Assembly (NCBI GenBank): GCA_018238205.1
Contig: JABCTV010000002.1
Coordinates: 21,620 to 85,619 of the forward strand
Direction: 5' to 3'
Length of the DNA stretch: 64,000 nucleotides
Origin: Candidatus Thorarchaeota archaeon
GTDB taxonomy: Archaea > Asgardarchaeota > Thorarchaeia > Thorarchaeales > Thorarchaeaceae
The translations under genes and the position numbers were made by a program. The notes beneath the pieces were generated by a model. That model had not been told where the DNA came from. It saw only the letters and a program-made list of their open reading frames with translations, and did no database searches. Positions 5,076 through 14,809 of this stretch are shown here, one piece after another (position 1 is the first letter of the stretch; every line of letters begins with the position of its first letter).

Positions 5076-6398
5076 TTACTTGAATCTTAGATGAGCATAT
5101 GCTGGTGTTTCATTCTCGAAAGCATAATGCACTTTTTGGTATTCCTTGCGGAACTCTCCAATCTCAGCTGCAACTTTGCTCAAATCGTCACCCTTCATGA
5201 CGACTCTAGTCATGAACTCTGCAATTGCATCCATTTCTGACTCTTTCATACCAAGTCTCGTCATTTCACTGGTTCCTAATCTGATTCCACCAGGAGTCTT
5301 GTAATCTCGACCTCTCTTCTTGTCCCAAGGCAAGAGATTACGATTGATGATTATGTTGGCATCCTCAAGGTTCACTTCGACAGCTGCTCCATCTTTCATT
5401 GGTGTTTCAGTGACATCTACCAAAACAACATGTGACTGAGTAAAGCCCTTGTGTTCGGCAATAACTTGCCATCCTCGCTCATGAAGTGACTGTGCTAGAG
5501 CCTTTGCATTCTTCATAATCTGTTTACTATAATCAACACCATACTCCATCATCTCAGCCAAAACAACAGCGAGACCAGCTACATTGTGGAGATGGTGGTT
5601 GCTAAGCAATCCTGGGAATGATGCTCTCTTAATTTTATCAGCCCATTCCTCTTTTGCAAGAACCATCGCATGTTGTGGTCCTGGAAGTGTCTTGTGAGTA
5701 GATGTAGTCATAATGTCTGCACCTTCCCTCAAAGGATCTTGGAAGAATCCTGAAGCAATCAGTCCTGAAACATGAGCTGAATCATAACCTATTGTCATAC
5801 CATACTCGTCTGCAATCTCACGGAACTCCTTAACTGGATGTGGGAATGGAAATACACTTCCTCCGAAGAGTAGGAATTTAATCTCATCACCTTTCTCATG
5901 GAGCTTCTTGATCACTTTCATGCTCTCATCTACGTCAATGTTGAACTCCTTGTCATCGAACGTCCAATTGCGAACCTTATGACCTCGAATAGCGCCAGCA
6001 GTTCCACCCAAGTTCTTTCTAGCATGGGAGATGTGCCCACCGTGGGCAATGGATAGTGCCATCATTCTATCTAGAGGATCCATAACTGCTGTATACATAG
6101 CAAGATTGGCAACTACTCCTGAAACAGGTCGTACGTCTGCAAACTCTGCCTTGTAGAGTTTCTTCGCCAAATCGATAGTGATGTGTTCTACTTCATCGAT
6201 GTACTTGCAACCTGCATAGACACGTTCACCTGGCCAGCCTTCTGCATAGCGGTCTCGAAAGTCACTGACTATTGCAGATCTCACTGCGGGAGATGACACG
6301 TTCTCACTGGCAATGAGATTTATTGTGTTCTGCATCCATAAATCATGTTTTTCCAATAACGAAAATATAGAATCGTATTTTTCCCTATGGTCACTCAT
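5076..6398 (-). CDS. glyA: Serine hydroxymethyltransferase
   Basis: PLP motif TTSTHKTLPGPQHAMVL, NLIASENV, archaeal length of 440 aa. Confidence 0.95.
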   Translation of the reverse strand: MSDHREKYDSIFSLLEKHDLWMQNTINLIASENVSSPAVRSAIVSDFRDRYAEGWPGERVYAGCKYIDEVEHITIDLAKKLYKAEFADVRPVSGVVANLAMYTAVMDPLDRMMALSIAHGGHISHARKNLGGTAGAIRGHKVRNWTFDDKEFNIDVDESMKVIKKLHEKGDEIKFLLFGGSVFPFPHPVKEFREIADEYGMTIGYDSAHVSGLIASGFFQDPLREGADIMTTSTHKTLPGPQHAMVLAKEEWADKIKRASFPGLLSNHHLHNVAGLAVVLAEMMEYGVDYSKQIMKNAKALAQSLHERGWQVIAEHKGFTQSHVVLVDVTETPMKDGAAVEVNLEDANIIINRNLLPWDKKRGRDYKTPGGIRLGTSEMTRLGMKESEMDAIAEFMTRVVMKGDDLSKVAAEIGEFRKEYQKVHYAFENETPAYAHLRFK

Positions 6399-7025: not shown

Positions 7026-7329
7026 CATAAAAATTGAAATATCTTAGAGATGCTTCGCGCTAGGCTTAGCTTCGTTATATGACTTACGAATCGGATTCTC
7101 TGATTGAAGTTAATCCCCTAGATGGGTACAAGAGAATCTATTACTATTTTGAGCATATGAACACTTACAGAGTATTTAACTAAACCGGACCCATTGTAAT
7201 ATATTACCTATGCAATAACTAGGAAGTCTAGAATCTACAGGTCTACGGTGAGCAGGACCCGTAACCAACAAGTCCTACAATAACTAATTCTTTGAAAATC
7301 TAGGTATAAAATGAAATGAGAAGAGGGAG

Positions 7330-7851
7330 ATGAAATTAAGGAAAATCAAGCAACACACAATACTGATTGGGCTGACTATGTTGATTTGTTCGTTCATTCT
7401 TGTAGTTGGTGTCACAGCAACAACCCCAATTGAAACCTTAGGGCACAAGACACCTATCACGTTTGGGTTCACCAACGTTCATGATGGAAATTTTGAGAGA
7501 ATGTGGTTTTCAGATGGAATACTTCACTTGCGTGGCGCCCCCCATGACGGTATAGTTTCGGGTGATTTGTTAGGTACCCTAACATATACAGGTGATATCA
7601 ATCTCAACATGGAAACCTATGACGGTACAGGTCAGGGCATCCTTTGCCTTAGTGTGACTTATGGCGATTTGTCTGGGACTTTTAGAGGACGAATGGTCAT
7701 CAAGGTCAATGGTGGAATCATAACTGCTATGTTCATTTGCCATGGTGATGGTGACTTTGAAGGGATGAAACTCAAAGGCACAGGTGGAGGGATTATGAAC
7801 CCTGAAACGATCTACTTAGCAGATGCTATCATTCTGAATCCCCATGGTTGA
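7330..7851 (+). CDS. Secreted/lipid-anchored protein of unknown function
   Basis: N-terminal signal peptide (MKLRKIKQHTILIGLTMLICSFILVVGVTA), then beta-rich sequence. Confidence 0.6.
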   Translation: MKLRKIKQHTILIGLTMLICSFILVVGVTATTPIETLGHKTPITFGFTNVHDGNFERMWFSDGILHLRGAPHDGIVSGDLLGTLTYTGDINLNMETYDGTGQGILCLSVTYGDLSGTFRGRMVIKVNGGIITAMFICHGDGDFEGMKLKGTGGGIMNPETIYLADAIILNPHG

Positions 7852-7971
7852 TAACTACTTTCTATGAGTGCAATTCAGATTCTGGATTCGCACTCTTTTT
7901 TCTTTTCAACACCTTAGTGTCAGTAAGTACCACAATCTCTATAAACTGAAATCGAGCAAATGCGAAATTAC

Positions 7972-8136
7972 GGGCCAGTGGCTAAGCCAGGCATAGCGAC
8001 AGGTCATCAGAGATTCTCTGGTGAGTTGAAGCTCTTAACTTGTAGATCTTGGGAATTCCCCGAGTTCAAGGACTGGTCGTGGGTTCACGATAGTTAATTT
8101 CCAACTATCGGCCTAAAAATCCCACCTGGCCCGCCA
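7972..8136 (+). tRNA. tRNA-Lys (CUU), apparently interrupted by three introns
   Basis: Acceptor GGGCCAG/CTGGCCC, discriminator G plus encoded CCA, D-arm GCTA-AGCCAGGCA-TAGC, anticodon stem ACAGG/CTTGT with loop CTCTTAA, T-stem GTGGG/CCCAC. Removing about 28, 30 and 30 nt segments (anticodon arm, variable region, T-loop) from 165 nt leaves 77 nt. Confidence 0.75.
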
Positions 8137-8403
8137 TATTCTTTTTATTATTCAGAACAATCTTTGAACAAAGACTCTCTATTTTATTCAAATAACTATC
8201 AAAATTAGTTATAACTTGTTTTTTTTCGAAGCACCAAAGGTCTTTTGTGCATAGTCTGCATATTTATGATTCAATAGATAGTGCATCGTTTTGCAAGGTC
8301 ATTACAAAGGCTAGAATCGCATGACTACAGGTGATTCGTACCAAGACCGCTTTATTCTGGGGATACAAGATTAATCCTATTTTGTAATAGGAGAGCTAAG
8401 AAA

Positions 8404-9867
8404 ATGAAAGAAAAAGAATTGAAAAAGATGAAGATAGCTTCAGCAATTCTAGCTGTGCTGCTTTTCTTTAGTTTGTTTTTTGCATTAGCAACAGATCAAG
8501 CTACAGCAACAACCCCCGAAATCGACATTATCGTTGATGAAGGGAATATCACTGACCATCTTTGGTCATCTGATGGAACTAAAATAGCATATATCAAGTG
8601 TCCAGAGGGACAATTTTGGGGTGACCTCTGGATTGCGGAGTGGGACGGTAAGGAAATCAAGAATAAACAGCTGATATACACGGAAGCCGACTATAATCAT
8701 TTAGAAGACTGGCAGGGTGACTGGATTCTTTTCATGATACGTGGAGAAGATAGTACACCTGATGAATACTATGGTCGTAATGAATTGTGGAAAATCCGGG
8801 ATGATGGGAGTGATCTTACTCAGATTACATTCACTTATACTAATGGAATAAAATATACAGAAAACGGGTATTACTATTACAGAGGTTCTGTTGGGTGGGG
8901 TAGATTCATTCCCGGAACAGAACTTGTGTATTTTTCAGCTCATAATGGCAATGGATGGTATAGACCATATACTTGTAATAATGACGGTACTGACCAGTGG
9001 AATTATGTCAGTGCTTCAGATCATCCGTATTCATTTACCATCGGTATGTCACCAACTGGTAACAAACTTGTATGGGGTAACGCTTGGTATTGGAATGCAC
9101 CCACTGAAGCTCTAATGGTATGTAATCCAGATGGTACAGAGAGAGAAATGATTAAGTCATTCGACAAACGTACTTTCCCGCTAGTACTAGCAGACGGGAA
9201 TACAGTCGTTTATAGCTGGTATGACGGTGACATACATGCAATTGACATGGATGGAAGCAATGACAGGATGATCCTTAACGATGAATATTTCAACCATTGG
9301 GAGAACTATCATCCTGTTGATGGACAGTCACTGTTAATGACAAGCGACCGGGTAGATGGAAATAAGCACATTTTCAAGATAAACATAGACGGTACTGAAA
9401 TCATTCAACTTACAGACGGCTTATGTAATGATGATCGTGCAAGTTATTCCCAAAATGCTCATGAGATTCTGTACAGACGAATGCCTCTTGAATCCGAACC
9501 ATATCAACTTGTCATTAAAAGAATCGTTAAACTCATTGAAATTGACATCAAACCTTGTAGCTTGCCCAACCCTATCAACCTCAAATCCAAAGGAAAAATC
9601 ACAGTGGCGATACTGACTACTGATGATTTTGATGCTTCAACTGTTGACCCTGTTACGATAGAATTTGCAGGAGCTAGTCCACTAAAATGGCATCTCTCAG
9701 ATGTGGACCTTGATGGTGACATAGATCTTGTCCTACACTTCAAGACACAAGAACTCGAGCTGACAAATGACAGTATTGAAGCAACCTTGACTGGAGAAAC
9801 ATTTGATTCTAAACAAATCATAGGAACCGACTCAGTTAGAATAGTTCCCCTGAAAATTTGCAAATAA
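8404..9867 (+). CDS. Secreted TolB-like beta-propeller protein with C-terminal IDIKPxSxPNxINLKSKG domain
   Basis: Signal peptide; repeated propeller motifs (WSSDGTKIAYIK, MDGSNDRMIL, INIDGTEIIQLTDG); C-terminus IDIKPCSLPNPINLKSKGKITVAILTTDDFDASTVDPVTIEFAGA…DVDLDGDIDLVLHFKTQEL. Confidence 0.75.
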   Translation: MKEKELKKMKIASAILAVLLFFSLFFALATDQATATTPEIDIIVDEGNITDHLWSSDGTKIAYIKCPEGQFWGDLWIAEWDGKEIKNKQLIYTEADYNHLEDWQGDWILFMIRGEDSTPDEYYGRNELWKIRDDGSDLTQITFTYTNGIKYTENGYYYYRGSVGWGRFIPGTELVYFSAHNGNGWYRPYTCNNDGTDQWNYVSASDHPYSFTIGMSPTGNKLVWGNAWYWNAPTEALMVCNPDGTEREMIKSFDKRTFPLVLADGNTVVYSWYDGDIHAIDMDGSNDRMILNDEYFNHWENYHPVDGQSLLMTSDRVDGNKHIFKINIDGTEIIQLTDGLCNDDRASYSQNAHEILYRRMPLESEPYQLVIKRIVKLIEIDIKPCSLPNPINLKSKGKITVAILTTDDFDASTVDPVTIEFAGASPLKWHLSDVDLDGDIDLVLHFKTQELELTNDSIEATLTGETFDSKQIIGTDSVRIVPLKICK

Positions 9868-9899
9868 TGACAGAGGAATCTAAATCAATTGATACTATT

Positions 9900-9929
9900 A
9901 TTGAGGGGTCTTACGCCCCTCATATTTTT
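9900..9929 (+). terminator. Hairpin plus T-rich tract
   Basis: TGAGGGG-TCTTACG-CCCCTCA followed by tatttttc, shortly after the 9867 stop. Confidence 0.65.
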
Positions 9930-9946
9930 CTTACAGATTAGAATAG

Positions 9947-9970
9947 TTCAAATCCCTCCTGGCCCGCCAT
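9947..9970 (+). repeat. Degenerate tRNA-Lys 3'-end copy (att-like), copy 2
   Basis: TTCAAATCCCTCCTGGCCCGCCAT; one mismatch in 23 nt to the predicted spliced tRNA-Lys 3' end TTCAAATCCCACCTGGCCCGCCA. Confidence 0.85.
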
Positions 9971-10039
9971 CATACAAAAACTTGCTTCAATCCAATTTTC
10001 TATTAATATTCAAATCTGTAGTTTATATGGTAATTCAAA

Positions 10040-10897
10040 ATGAGTAGAGCACTCAAGACTGATACGGGAGAGATTCGCTTCATCTGGAAACTTGGAATTA
10101 CTCTCATTCTGATTCTTATGCTAATTGTCATTAGTAGACTCAGTCTGATATTTACAGTTCAGCAAATCCTCATTTTGCAAGGGACCCCATCATCTGTTGC
10201 TTTTCAAAATGCACAAATCTTTGTTGCTGAATCAGCTGAGGGGCAAGCCATTGCGAGTTCTCTCGACTTTCTCTTGATGTTCTTACTTGTTATCTTACTA
10301 GTCACCCGCTTCGAGAAACGTGAGTTTTACTTAGCGAATATTGGTTTGGATATACAGCGTAATACCTTGACATTCTTGCTACTGGGATTAGTCATTGGAT
10401 GTGGTCTCTTTCTTGGATCTGTGATGTTTGGAGTTCTTTTTAGCACTGTAGAGTTCCCGATTTTCTCTGATCTTACCCAATGGGCAGTCTCTAGCACATT
10501 AGTGGCTTCAATGATCTTCTTTACTTTGAACAGTTTTTGGCAGGAAGTTATATTTCGGGGATATTTGCAGACCCGTGCAGTTGAAAGATACGGTCAAATG
10601 CTCGGTATTGTGGGAATTACAGCAATCTTTGTTCTTTTTCATGGACTAGTTCAATCTCTTACACTTGTAGGAATTATCTCAGGCATGCTGTTGTTCATTT
10701 TCATTGGACTGCTTTATGAAAAAACTAGATCACTCTTCTTTGTGGGTGTGATTCATGCTGTTCTTAATTTCCTAAAGGTTCAACTTGATATCACGTTTCA
10801 TGGATTAGAAGCTGTCGTCACATATGGTATTGCACTTCTACTATTGATTCTAGTGATATACAAAACTGAGAAGGTACCATCAACTAACTTTCAATAG
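10040..10897 (+). CDS. CPBP (Rce1/CAAX-like) family intramembrane protease
   Basis: Multi-TM; motif FWQEVIFRGYLQTR, followed by VLFHGLVQS and VIHAVLNF. Confidence 0.8.
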   Translation: MSRALKTDTGEIRFIWKLGITLILILMLIVISRLSLIFTVQQILILQGTPSSVAFQNAQIFVAESAEGQAIASSLDFLLMFLLVILLVTRFEKREFYLANIGLDIQRNTLTFLLLGLVIGCGLFLGSVMFGVLFSTVEFPIFSDLTQWAVSSTLVASMIFFTLNSFWQEVIFRGYLQTRAVERYGQMLGIVGITAIFVLFHGLVQSLTLVGIISGMLLFIFIGLLYEKTRSLFFVGVIHAVLNFLKVQLDITFHGLEAVVTYGIALLLLILVIYKTEKVPSTNFQ

Positions 10898-10916
10898 ATT
10901 CTACTGTAAGAATATT

Positions 10917-10940
10917 TTCAAATCCATCCTGGCCCGCCAT
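10917..10940 (+). repeat. Degenerate tRNA-Lys 3'-end copy (att-like), copy 3
   Basis: TTCAAATCCATCCTGGCCCGCCAT; 2 mismatches to the predicted spliced tRNA-Lys 3' end. Confidence 0.85.
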
Positions 10941-10960: not shown

Positions 10961-11929
10961 TTATTTGGATAATTTATCGAGTCTTGAAATTCTTTCTTCA
11001 GCCTCAGCCATCATTCTATCCAATAATTCCTGAACAGAGGGAATATCTTTGATTAAGCCTACACCTTGACCGCAACTTACAACCCCCACGTCAATATCTC
11101 CTTCCCTGTACATCTTTTCTGCTTTATCTCCAGAGGCAGCTTGAATGAGAATGAATAGTGGTGATTTTTGATTCTCTAGTTCAAGTACGTGCTGTGCTGC
11201 TTTATTGTTCCATAGTCTGTGGGTATTACCAACAGAACGCAAAGCCAGAGTTGTATCGGTTTCTGCTGCGTTAACAAATGCCTGTTTGAGATTGTCATGT
11301 ATGGGACATTCCTTTGTAGCCATCATTCTTGTACCCATAATTACTCCTTCAGCACCCAGGGCCAAGATTGCAGCAATACCTCTGCCATCTGTTATTCCAC
11401 CTCCAGCAATTACGGGAACATCTAGAGCATCAACTACGGATGGAGTCATTACCATCGTTCCTATATCTAGAGTACCAGTAGCTCCACCATTTTCATATCC
11501 AACTACAGTTACCATATCCGCCCCCAGGGATGCTCCTTTTATCGCATATCTTACTCCCGCACATTTGTGAATCCAGATGACATCTTTGAATTTTGGCACC
11601 AAATCCTCTGGGGCTTTGTGACCACTTGTTTCAATGATTTTTACACCCTCGGCTAATGTAGCATCCACATAATCTTCTAGCTTGTCTTGAGGCATCAAAG
11701 CGGGGAACAAATTGATATTAACTGCAAATGGTTGATTTGTAAGAGATTGCGTTTTCTTGATTGCATCGCGCAGTTCATCAGGTGATTTGTAATTTGCACT
11801 GGCTAACACAGCACAGGCACCAGCATTACTAACTGCCGCGACAAATTCAGGATTAGAAATTCTTGCCATGGCCCCTGCTATAATCGGATATTTACATTCC
11901 AACATCTCAGTTACTTTTGTCTTTATCAT
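10961..11929 (-). CDS. Nitronate monooxygenase / FabK-like FMN-dependent enzyme
   Basis: PIIAGAMARISNPEFVAAVSNAGACAVLAS…DVPVIAGGGITDGRGIAAILALGAEGVIMGTRMMATKE. Confidence 0.88.
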   Translation of the reverse strand: MIKTKVTEMLECKYPIIAGAMARISNPEFVAAVSNAGACAVLASANYKSPDELRDAIKKTQSLTNQPFAVNINLFPALMPQDKLEDYVDATLAEGVKIIETSGHKAPEDLVPKFKDVIWIHKCAGVRYAIKGASLGADMVTVVGYENGGATGTLDIGTMVMTPSVVDALDVPVIAGGGITDGRGIAAILALGAEGVIMGTRMMATKECPIHDNLKQAFVNAAETDTTLALRSVGNTHRLWNNKAAQHVLELENQKSPLFILIQAASGDKAEKMYREGDIDVGVVSCGQGVGLIKDIPSVQELLDRMMAEAEERISRLDKLSK

Positions 11930-12034: not shown

Positions 12035-12058
12035 TTCAAATCTCTCCTGACCCGCCAT
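12035..12058 (+). repeat. Degenerate tRNA-Lys 3'-end copy (att-like), copy 4
   Basis: TTCAAATCTCTCCTGACCCGCCAT; 3 mismatches to the predicted spliced tRNA-Lys 3' end. Confidence 0.75.
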
Positions 12059-12134: not shown

Positions 12135-12422
12135 TTGGTGATGCAATTGGAAAAGTATGTAACTCCGTTAAATCCAGAAGATTCTCTTCTTCCAGTGACT
12201 TTCCTTGATGGGATTACCTCTAGAGAAACTCCTGTTCCAACTCTATACGCAATACGATTCTTCTGTAGAGAGTTAGAAACAACACTTGATACCTTGTTAC
12301 AAAGTCAAGAATTACAGGAGCTTCTTAGCAATAGGACTGAGGAAAAGGAAGAGATCCATGAATCCCTTCAAAGAGTCTTGCATCGATTTCAAGAGTTTCT
12401 CATGGTGGATGCTCGTCGATAG
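12135..12422 (+). CDS. Small hypothetical protein
   Basis: 95 aa ORF with plausible composition and predicted helical C-terminus; no family recognised. Confidence 0.4.
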   Translation: MVMQLEKYVTPLNPEDSLLPVTFLDGITSRETPVPTLYAIRFFCRELETTLDTLLQSQELQELLSNRTEEKEEIHESLQRVLHRFQEFLMVDARR

Positions 12423-12565: not shown

Positions 12566-14203
12566 ATGTCCAAAATACTCAAACATAACAAGTTTCTTCT
12601 CAGTGCTATTGTGATTACCATTGTTCTTTCAGGAATGACCTTTGGAAACATACCTGCACCCACTGTACCCCAAGGCACTCAGATAGTAAATGGTGACACC
12701 TACAACTTTGCAGATTATAATTCATTGACACATGAACAGATAGCACTATACAACTACTTGTCCTCTATCGTTCTTGATGAGCCCGTGAATTCATTTGACA
12801 ATTGGTCCGCGGACCAATATTGGGGATACCTTCACTATATGTTGGCCTTCACCCAGTATGTGTTTTCAACAGTCTTTGAAACCACTCCTGGTTACAGGAC
12901 AGCTCACTATGAAGACCCAGCACATCAACTGATTAAGAAAATGAACACCACATCGGGAGAGTTTGGGAATGAATCAATAGAGTACATCGAATGGATTTAT
13001 CGCGGTTTTGAAGTATACCACTGGCCAAATGCAACGGATCCTACTGATTTGTACATGGGTGATTATCGAGGACCTACGAATATTATGTGGACTGGTCATT
13101 ACGCACTGATGGAGGCATTGTATGAACGCAGCTTCAACACTGGGGAATTCATTGACGAAATTACATGGTTCATAGAGGACTGGAACAACTCTCTTACAAC
13201 AGATGGTTACGGTAACCCACAAGAGGGAGGAATTTGGGAAACAGGCCTTATTCCATGTGAACCTTACATAGTCTTCTCTCAATGTAACAGTATCTCAATA
13301 TTCTGTACTGAACTCTATGACAACATATATGGAACTCAGTGGATGGAATCTGGTCTATGGGATTATGGTCTCAATTTTATCAATACTGAAATGCATGATT
13401 ACTATGGTCTCTTTATTGATGGATACTTTGTTCAACAACCAATTGGTGCTACTATCTCAACAGTAGCTCCTGAAGTAGTTCCAAACCCTGCAGTTGATAT
13501 CCATTCCACAGATGGTAGACCTAAGGATAATGCATATGGTACTGCATGGGCTTTGACCTTCTTAGAGTATACACAACCCGAGCTCTCAATTGCTGATTAT
13601 GACCCCTTCATGGAGGGCTATGGTGTAGATGTTTCCGCAGATATGATGTACACGGTAGGGTCTCTCAACAATATTGGTAATTTTGGTGATGTTGATGGCA
13701 TGCTTGGGACTTTCTTCGCAAGCGTTCTAGCTAATCAGAGAGGAGACTACGTAACACGTGATCGTCTTCAAAATTTCCTGACTGGGGCATACAACCAAGT
13801 TTGGTCTGCTGATGGTAGAGAAATGTACTATGACACCTCCGCTCTACTCAATTTCCTTAAACCTGTCACTGCTGGATTCAAAATCTGGTCAACTGTCCCT
13901 GTTACCATGCGTGATTTAGGTGATGCTAGACCAGCTGGGTTCTGGGATTGGCCATACATATCAGCAGCTGATGATGATAGTATCTGGGTGTATCAGGCTG
14001 AATGGGATCCAGTAAATGAAGGATTTATTCTCAACATCAAAGTGGATGAAACAGCGACACTCACTTTCAGTAACTTTGACTCGACTCCTACAGCATATTC
14101 TGGAGGTTTAGCAATTGGAGATTTTGTAGCATCTGGCGCTGATTACATATTGACCCTTACACCAGGTTCGTATAACATTGTAATCACTCAAGGAGGTAGT
14201 TAA
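12566..14203 (+). CDS. Large secreted protein of unknown function
   Basis: Signal peptide MSKILKHNKFLLSAIVITIVLSGMTFG; aromatic-rich ectodomain; stop directly abuts the next ATG. Confidence 0.7.
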   Translation: MSKILKHNKFLLSAIVITIVLSGMTFGNIPAPTVPQGTQIVNGDTYNFADYNSLTHEQIALYNYLSSIVLDEPVNSFDNWSADQYWGYLHYMLAFTQYVFSTVFETTPGYRTAHYEDPAHQLIKKMNTTSGEFGNESIEYIEWIYRGFEVYHWPNATDPTDLYMGDYRGPTNIMWTGHYALMEALYERSFNTGEFIDEITWFIEDWNNSLTTDGYGNPQEGGIWETGLIPCEPYIVFSQCNSISIFCTELYDNIYGTQWMESGLWDYGLNFINTEMHDYYGLFIDGYFVQQPIGATISTVAPEVVPNPAVDIHSTDGRPKDNAYGTAWALTFLEYTQPELSIADYDPFMEGYGVDVSADMMYTVGSLNNIGNFGDVDGMLGTFFASVLANQRGDYVTRDRLQNFLTGAYNQVWSADGREMYYDTSALLNFLKPVTAGFKIWSTVPVTMRDLGDARPAGFWDWPYISAADDDSIWVYQAEWDPVNEGFILNIKVDETATLTFSNFDSTPTAYSGGLAIGDFVASGADYILTLTPGSYNIVITQGGS

Positions 14204-14809
14204 ATGGCTTCTGAAGACATTACTATCTCCCCAGAATCAGAGAAATCCATACTTGACCGATTATATCTCCAGAACGTCCGAGAGATACTCCTAACAATCA
14301 TTTGCATTGCTTTGGGCATTAGTTTCTTTCTTGGTTTTTCCCTTATTCAAATGCCTTACATCATGATTTCGTTCTTTGCATTAGGACTTGCACCAGCATA
14401 TGCAATAATCGCAGTAACTGGTGCTATCAGAGGACCATTTGCAGGATTTATAGTTGGAGCGCTAGGGAAACTATTCACCGATCTGTTTCTTTATGGTATG
14501 ATTCCACTCATGGGTCTACCATACCTTGCTTATGGAGTGCTGGGTCTAATCGTAGGCTTAGCCACCTATGATTTCACAGAGGGAAGATCGCTAGCTAAGA
14601 TGTCAATACTCTCGATGGTAGGTCTTGCATTCACATTGATGTTAGTCGTAGTTATTGGACTACTGTTGGGTGATGTAGCAATACTAGTTGGGATTGCATT
14701 CATTTTGTTACCTCAACTGACCTTGGGACTTCCTTCAGTATTTCTCCTTACACCAATCTTTGCTAGAGTATGGTATATCCTAAAGGAGAATGTTCCTCTT
14801 CCTATTTAG
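14204..14809 (+). CDS. ECF-transporter S-component-like membrane protein
   Basis: About 6 hydrophobic segments; APAYAIIAVTGAIRGPFAGFIVGALGKLFTDLFLYG… pattern resembles ECF S-components; ATG immediately follows the TAA of the upstream gene. Confidence 0.55.
   Translation: MASEDITISPESEKSILDRLYLQNVREILLTIICIALGISFFLGFSLIQMPYIMISFFALGLAPAYAIIAVTGAIRGPFAGFIVGALGKLFTDLFLYGMIPLMGLPYLAYGVLGLIVGLATYDFTEGRSLAKMSILSMVGLAFTLMLVVVIGLLLGDVAILVGIAFILLPQLTLGLPSVFLLTPIFARVWYILKENVPLPI

Follow-up and report, generated by a model that had tools for sequence, protein, structure and literature searches.

We consider it probable, at roughly 70%, that the tRNA-Lys(CTT) gene described here serves as a fixed entry site from which an array of gene cassettes grows, and that the intron in its T-loop came first and does not stop insertion. 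The gene lies in the window (the whole stretch of 64,000 nucleotides that was analysed), which is part of a 3.57-Mb draft genome (G000) whose relatives are Candidatus Thorarchaeota. The original prediction had noted an interrupted T-loop in the gene and uninterrupted copies downstream of it, and had dated the intron after the integrations and given it a protective role; the observation is confirmed, but the dating and the protection are refuted at the tRNA-Lys locus. The array, which is bounded exactly by tRNA 3' fragments, is a more interesting object than the dating of the intron.

The tRNA-Lys(CTT) gene and its introns

The tRNA-Lys(CTT) gene (7972–8136, + strand) contains three predicted introns and an encoded CCA end, as judged by sequence, in-silico splicing, and fold. 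Unspliced, it was missed by both ARAGORN and Rfam. Removal of the three introns in silico yielded a 77-nt sequence with the encoded CCA, which ARAGORN called as tRNA-Lys(ctt); the introns thus interrupt a tRNA gene, and their removal gives a normal tRNA, as in archaeal bulge-helix-bulge (BHB) tRNA introns. The fold of the unspliced RNA was far better than that of shuffled sequence (z = −4.8), and splicing of the introns, including excision by the splicing endonuclease, is predicted. Intron 1 (8003–8030, +; position 30/31) has a 4-bp central helix (CGAC/GTTG), and its assignment draws on the sequence, recognition of the spliced tRNA, and introns at the same position in relatives. Intron 2 (8044–8073, +; position 43/44) lies in the variable region, where relatives devoid of it read CTTGT/TGGTC. 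Intron 3 (8087–8116, +; position 56/57), with the letters ACGATAGTTAATTTCCAACTATCGGCCTAA, lies in the T-loop and separates T54-T55-C56 (8084–8086) from A57 onward by 30 nt, as the original prediction had stated. Exon 4 (8117–8136, +) comprises A57–A76 and, from the repeats downstream and the fragment alignment, is the resident copy of the recombination core. We note that T-stem pair 50-64 (window 8074–8136) takes all four Watson-Crick forms across residents; it is T-A in the window resident, and T is found at 64 in all three downstream fragments and in the sister genome G005. For this contrast at 64, a swap of the 3' end would need a match on the other side of the intron.

To compare the T-loop intron, we aligned 16 different alleles from the window's genus (g1) and genera g2, g4, g7, g25, and g27, and the intron was 30 nt long in 16/16. 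A structure model with pairs 49-50/64-65, a GGGT/GCCT central helix, and an 8-bp intron hairpin had 93.3% of cells paired and a covariation score of 0.617, compared with 0.224 for shuffled alignments and at most 0.125 with slid partners. The helix and the bulges at both splice sites are conserved by covariation, as is characteristic of a BHB intron.

The recombination core and the cassettes

The 20-nt exon 4 recurs at 9950, 10920, and 12038 with 1–3 mismatches, and dinucleotide shuffles gave 0.00 matches. As predicted, all three copies are uninterrupted; each is preceded directly by TTC, and they read TTCAAATC. They constitute fragment 1 (9947–9969, +), fragment 2 (10917–10939, +), the right flank of which aligns with the flank of the tRNA itself in G005, and fragment 3 (12035–12057, +), the most degenerate, with 3 mismatches in the core. 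The claim that all repeats are intron-less holds in the window (3/3) but fails as a rule for the genus, because Lys fragments with T-arm introns occur at G003 5088, G011 10382, the contig end of G012, and G046 2692 (genus g7). Among 43 well-preserved Lys fragments, T54 is present in 33/43, T55 in 26/43, and C56 in 31/43, identity is near-complete across A57–A76, the letter at position 53 is random, and homology ends at A76. The site appears to be T54–A76 with a near-invariant part, A57–A76, which the 56/57 intron abuts, leaving 20 nt uninterrupted. The intron had been placed inside the att core, which is correct insofar as the repeat starts at T54, but the intron is not deep inside it. Further, 53/54 introns fall outside the near-invariant core, and the G006 intron of the 58/59 type has ...CAA as its last letters, followed by ATCCC, which rebuilds AAATCCC; all three T-arm intron positions in genus g1 leave A57–A76 contiguous in DNA. 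Elsewhere in the window's genome, contig C254 (L009) carries a real Lys-type array piece, which also encodes a GIY-YIG-like protein just under the Pfam cut-off; the fragment copy on C194 is doubtful, and that on C69 lies inside a coding frame. A second tRNA-Lys, on the 2.7-kb contig C221 (L125), has the T-arm sequence, T-loop intron, and 3' flank of genus g4 and was not used, as it is probably misbinned.

Two genes flank the tRNA and the array. Upstream lies the conserved neighbour of the tRNA, encoding serine hydroxymethyltransferase (5076–6398, −; from locus comparison and the tree described below), and beyond the second tRNA copy lies the distal backbone anchor, encoding nitronate monooxygenase (10961–11929, −). 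Between them, cassette 1 (8137–9946, +) extends from the tRNA end to fragment 1, carries a gene for a secreted propeller-like (PD40) protein (8404–9867), and has homologues in the G009 and G013 loci. Cassette 2 (9970–10916, +) carries a gene for an Rce1-like (CPBP) membrane protease (10040–10897), and the unit 9950–10939 matches G002 7264–8253 with both ends exactly on the core. A 93-aa gene (12141–12422, +), conserved in G005 and G009, belongs to the backbone distal to the array. Two further genes (545 and 201 aa) at 12566–14809 are also found in several relatives and are absent at that place in G005.

Across the genus, a shared pool of Rce1-like protease, methyltransferase, DinB-like, VIT-like, GNAT, beta-helix, 124-aa, and other genes is found between the tRNA and the nitronate monooxygenase gene, and the series drawn from it differ between genomes. 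The units are mostly 0.3–2.6 kb and mostly single-gene in many genomes; most of these are draft metagenome-assembled genomes, and contig ends cut the arrays off. When units are aligned between genomes, both limits of the match fall exactly on the core (offsets 0 and 19–22; for example, 0/19/0/19 for G000–G002 and for G006c–G015b). A direct repeat of the tRNA 3' end lies at both borders. Orientation is nearly fixed, the Rce1-like, 124-aa, DinB, and VIT families being always + and the methyltransferase and GNAT families always −, the beta-helix family being the exception; one family, F3, is found in both orientations. The order, on the other hand, is shuffled: methyltransferase, 124-aa, protease in G004 and G013 versus 124-aa, methyltransferase in G015. 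To the left of the core, homologous cassettes share their sequence from one genome to another; this sequence includes TTC in the methyltransferase, DinB-like, and propeller cassettes but not in the 124-aa cassette. Because this left sequence belongs to, and travels with, the cassette on that side, a cassette-borne intron-less att is favoured over a record of intron-less former residents, in agreement with the alternative, also offered in the original prediction, that the elements carry intron-less att sites.

No integrase gene was found in the arrays. In a search of 16 genomes (80–99% complete), tyrosine recombinases (PF00589) were present in 7 and never on an array contig, with 9/16 devoid of any match, and serine recombinases (PF00239) were present in 6, again never on an array contig. 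None of 2.9 million viral contigs that were scanned matched the 23-nt core, and thus no carrier virus was found. We found no description of tRNA-anchored arrays of this kind in the open-licence literature. Some loci also carry pieces of the 5' part of tRNA-Lys: three lie upstream in L119 (G050), with ends at about 53, at 50, and inside intron 1, and one each in L120 (G051) and L098 (G003), and it seems that insertions occur on the 5' side as well. In L104 (G012) and L114 (G044), a 5' tRNA-Lys piece and a complete tRNA-Lys in inverted orientation face each other at a distance of ~2 kb. The corresponding 3' half in G012, which has a T-loop intron, lies at the contig end, so the native gene is interrupted by an element carrying a tRNA of its own.

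Age of the intron and mobility of the cassettes

We used serine hydroxymethyltransferase, the neighbour of the tRNA, for a species tree of 31 tips with genus g27 as the outgroup. The T-loop intron is found across this tree, including g27, the deepest-branching genus, and the state of the T-arm intron has changed at least 12 times on it. Relatives also carry T-arm introns at 53/54 (G001, G004, and G011) and at 58/59 (G006, G022, G048, and G049), the latter placed by splice-site reasoning. The sister order is ((G000, G009), G005), with supports of 99/96. The T-loop intron is shared by G005, whose tRNA-Lys directly adjoins the nitronate monooxygenase gene with no cassette in between; the 3' flank of this tRNA is that of fragment 2 in the window, and the 1559 bp from core base 0 of fragment 2 rightward are 92.6% identical in the two genomes. 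Since the same adjacency is seen in G016 (genus g2, with the intron) and G051 (genus g3, intron-less), the order tRNA then nitronate monooxygenase is ancestral. Comparison of G005 with G000 thus shows an empty site in a close relative; loss of cassettes in G005 is also possible, but such a loss is itself an exchange at an intron-bearing tRNA. Further, the tRNA-adjacent cassettes vary by genome while the tRNAs keep their T-loop introns (G000, G002, G003, G006, G013, G014, G015, and G046). We conclude that the T-loop intron is older than the cassettes at the tRNA-Lys locus.

The site is not limited to tRNA-Lys. We checked 34 other tRNA genes of G000 for displaced 3' fragments within 6 kb and detected them near Ala(CGC), Thr(GGT), a Thr with a 53/54 intron, a Leu, and a Ser (loci L278, L282, L295, L296, and L297), in each case 0.1–2.3 kb downstream of the tRNA. 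At tRNA-Thr(GGT), G005 has tRNA, cassette B, and fragment, whereas G009 has tRNA, cassette A, fragment, cassette B, and fragment. Cassette B is 98.3% identical between the two over 519 bp, compared with 92.4% in the longest nearby backbone alignment, and its flanks beyond the core are unrelated on both sides. The G005 locus is the empty site of the G009 insertion, which, on this comparison of sequences, would settle that the cassettes are mobile. In G009 the resident reads TTC/GAATC and the displaced copy CGC/AAATC, which suggests an exchange between C56 and A58 if the G arrived with the cassette. In G000 the tRNA-Thr(GGT) gene (L307/L282, contig C314) appears to have been replaced: relative to G009, its upstream side has ~2.9 kb more DNA and a different promoter region, and a 3' half with an intron follows 30 bp downstream. 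The helix-turn-helix proteins encoded in cassettes at tRNA-Thr and tRNA-Ser (L295 571–1872, −; L297 691–1671, +) are related to each other, and one of them weakly matches HNH. It is possible that these helix-turn-helix/HNH proteins and the GIY-YIG-like protein are mobility enzymes.

Interpretation and comparison with known systems

Under the reading that we prefer, each cassette would be a short DNA unit, usually one gene, with one copy of the tRNA 3' end. Recombination in the core from the T-loop to the 3' end (T54–A76, minimally A57–A76) would put an incoming cassette directly behind the tRNA; the cassette would provide the gene's 3' end, and the old 3' end would be displaced as a fragment. 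With repeated insertion, older cassettes would come to lie ever closer to the nitronate monooxygenase gene. Bordering the core on its left, the T-loop intron would leave those 20 nt contiguous and would not stop insertion, and the intron-less TTCAAAT of the fragments would mostly come from the cassettes' own att arms. We infer a recombinase acting in trans, via circular intermediates, with exchange near 56/57. Against this array model, our searches found no enzyme and no circular form, and the A at position 64 of the resident, with T in the fragments and G005 and position 50 co-changing, is unexplained by a pure 3'-end swap.

The three fragments of the window are intron-less while its resident has the intron, and this had led to the reading that integrations used an uninterrupted tRNA before an intron was gained that now protects the site, following a hypothesis of Randau and Soll that is cited in passages of PMC3293823 and PMC4390854. 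We regard this as very improbable. Five further genera, among them the deepest-branching one, which split before the cassettes arrived, share this 30-nt intron, as does the outgroup genome G016, which has no array. Intron-bearing sisters had been expected to lack newer insertions, but seven other intron-bearing genomes have lineage-specific cassettes of their own beside the tRNA, and the core is uninterrupted in DNA; intron-bearing tRNA genes are thus not free of later integrations, and protection finds no support. Every genome found to have same-strand downstream Lys fragments either lacks a recovered resident tRNA or has one with a T-arm intron, in a sample that is small and closely related, with too few independent pairs for statistics. 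It is rather less improbable, though still doubtful as a general account, that elements carry introns and that insertion replaces the resident T-loop and 3' end, the fragments being earlier alleles, as in the model of Sugahara et al. (2012). Several fragments differ from their residents in this way (53/54 versus 56/57 in G046, 56/57 versus 53/54 in G011, 58/59 type versus 56/57 in G003, and, at tRNA-Thr of G000, two introns versus none), and the many state changes on the tree also fit. However, left of A57 most fragments are conserved with the cassette and not with the tRNA, and every complete T-arm observed in the genus is now intron-bearing while most fragments read TTCAAAT, which makes them hard to explain as former residents. 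Because these few fragments carry introns that differ from the resident's, integration has also transferred introns, in line with the proposal of Sugahara et al. (PMC3293823).

A somewhat better, but still minority, case can be made that the arrays are what is left of ordinary tRNA-targeting integrative elements after deletion of their integrase genes; the cassettes could be the decayed remains of such larger elements, later shuffled by deletion and by homologous recombination between shared cassettes. The 3' ends of tRNA genes are standard att sites, and the split tRNA-Lys of G012 contains a larger element (primase-like at E 0.095, HNH). This reading is set against short, mostly single-gene units in many genomes, with core boundaries at both ends and nearly fixed orientation, and against the absence of integrases from every array contig of the 16 genomes, 9 of which lack PF00589 altogether. 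Returning to the array model, we tentatively suggest, at a similar level of doubt, that Thorarchaeia have an integron-like gene capture in which tRNA genes are the entry sites, their 3' ends are the cassette sites, and a recombinase outside the searched families acts at ~56/57. If this is true, exchange at the point where T-loop introns sit would link cassette insertion with tRNA intron turnover.

Whether tRNA introns are shields against mobile DNA, and how they are gained and lost, is a matter of long debate for which direct evidence has been scarce. The locus and its relatives pair intron alleles with a layered insertion record, and this record argues against shielding. The introns themselves resemble archaeal BHB introns, which occur at non-canonical positions and up to three per gene, in position, size, predicted BHB, and number per gene; nothing essential differs, except that here the position turns over very fast within one genus. 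A close precedent is the disrupted tRNA-Thr(GGU) of Caldiarchaeum, with a tRNA fragment, an intron-bearing tRNA, an inserted segment of ~1.9 kb, and intron differences between strains, for which the authors suggested that gaining an intron could keep out subsequent invaders (Sugahara et al. 2012, PMC3293823). Our loci likewise have fragments beside an intron-bearing tRNA, linked to inserted DNA. In contrast, they have many serial 3' fragments and single-gene cassettes at several tRNA genes in many genomes, and their T-arm intron is no barrier to further insertion; our data give no support to blocking. With tRNA-gene genomic islands and the accretion of integrase-less (cis-mobilizable) elements, the arrays share displaced 3' fragments that mark ends and serial insertion at one tRNA, but they consist mostly of 0.3–2.6-kb units of one gene, many per array, with no mobility genes. 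Integrons, including those of archaea, which have folded attC sites and IntI (PMC9668308), are similar in their tandem short genes between recombination sites, mostly fixed orientation per cassette (here with F3 in both), shared pool, shuffled order, and growth from one fixed entry site. They differ in that our site is a 23-nt tRNA 3' end and not a folded attC, the only conserved stretch between cassettes being T54–A76 with no conserved partner arm upstream (as judged by fragment alignment); in that no IntI-type tyrosine recombinase lies next to the arrays (PF00589 search); in that genes lie on both strands; and in that the entry site is a working tRNA gene. The arrays look like a route by which Asgard archaea capture and reshuffle single genes outside known integrons.
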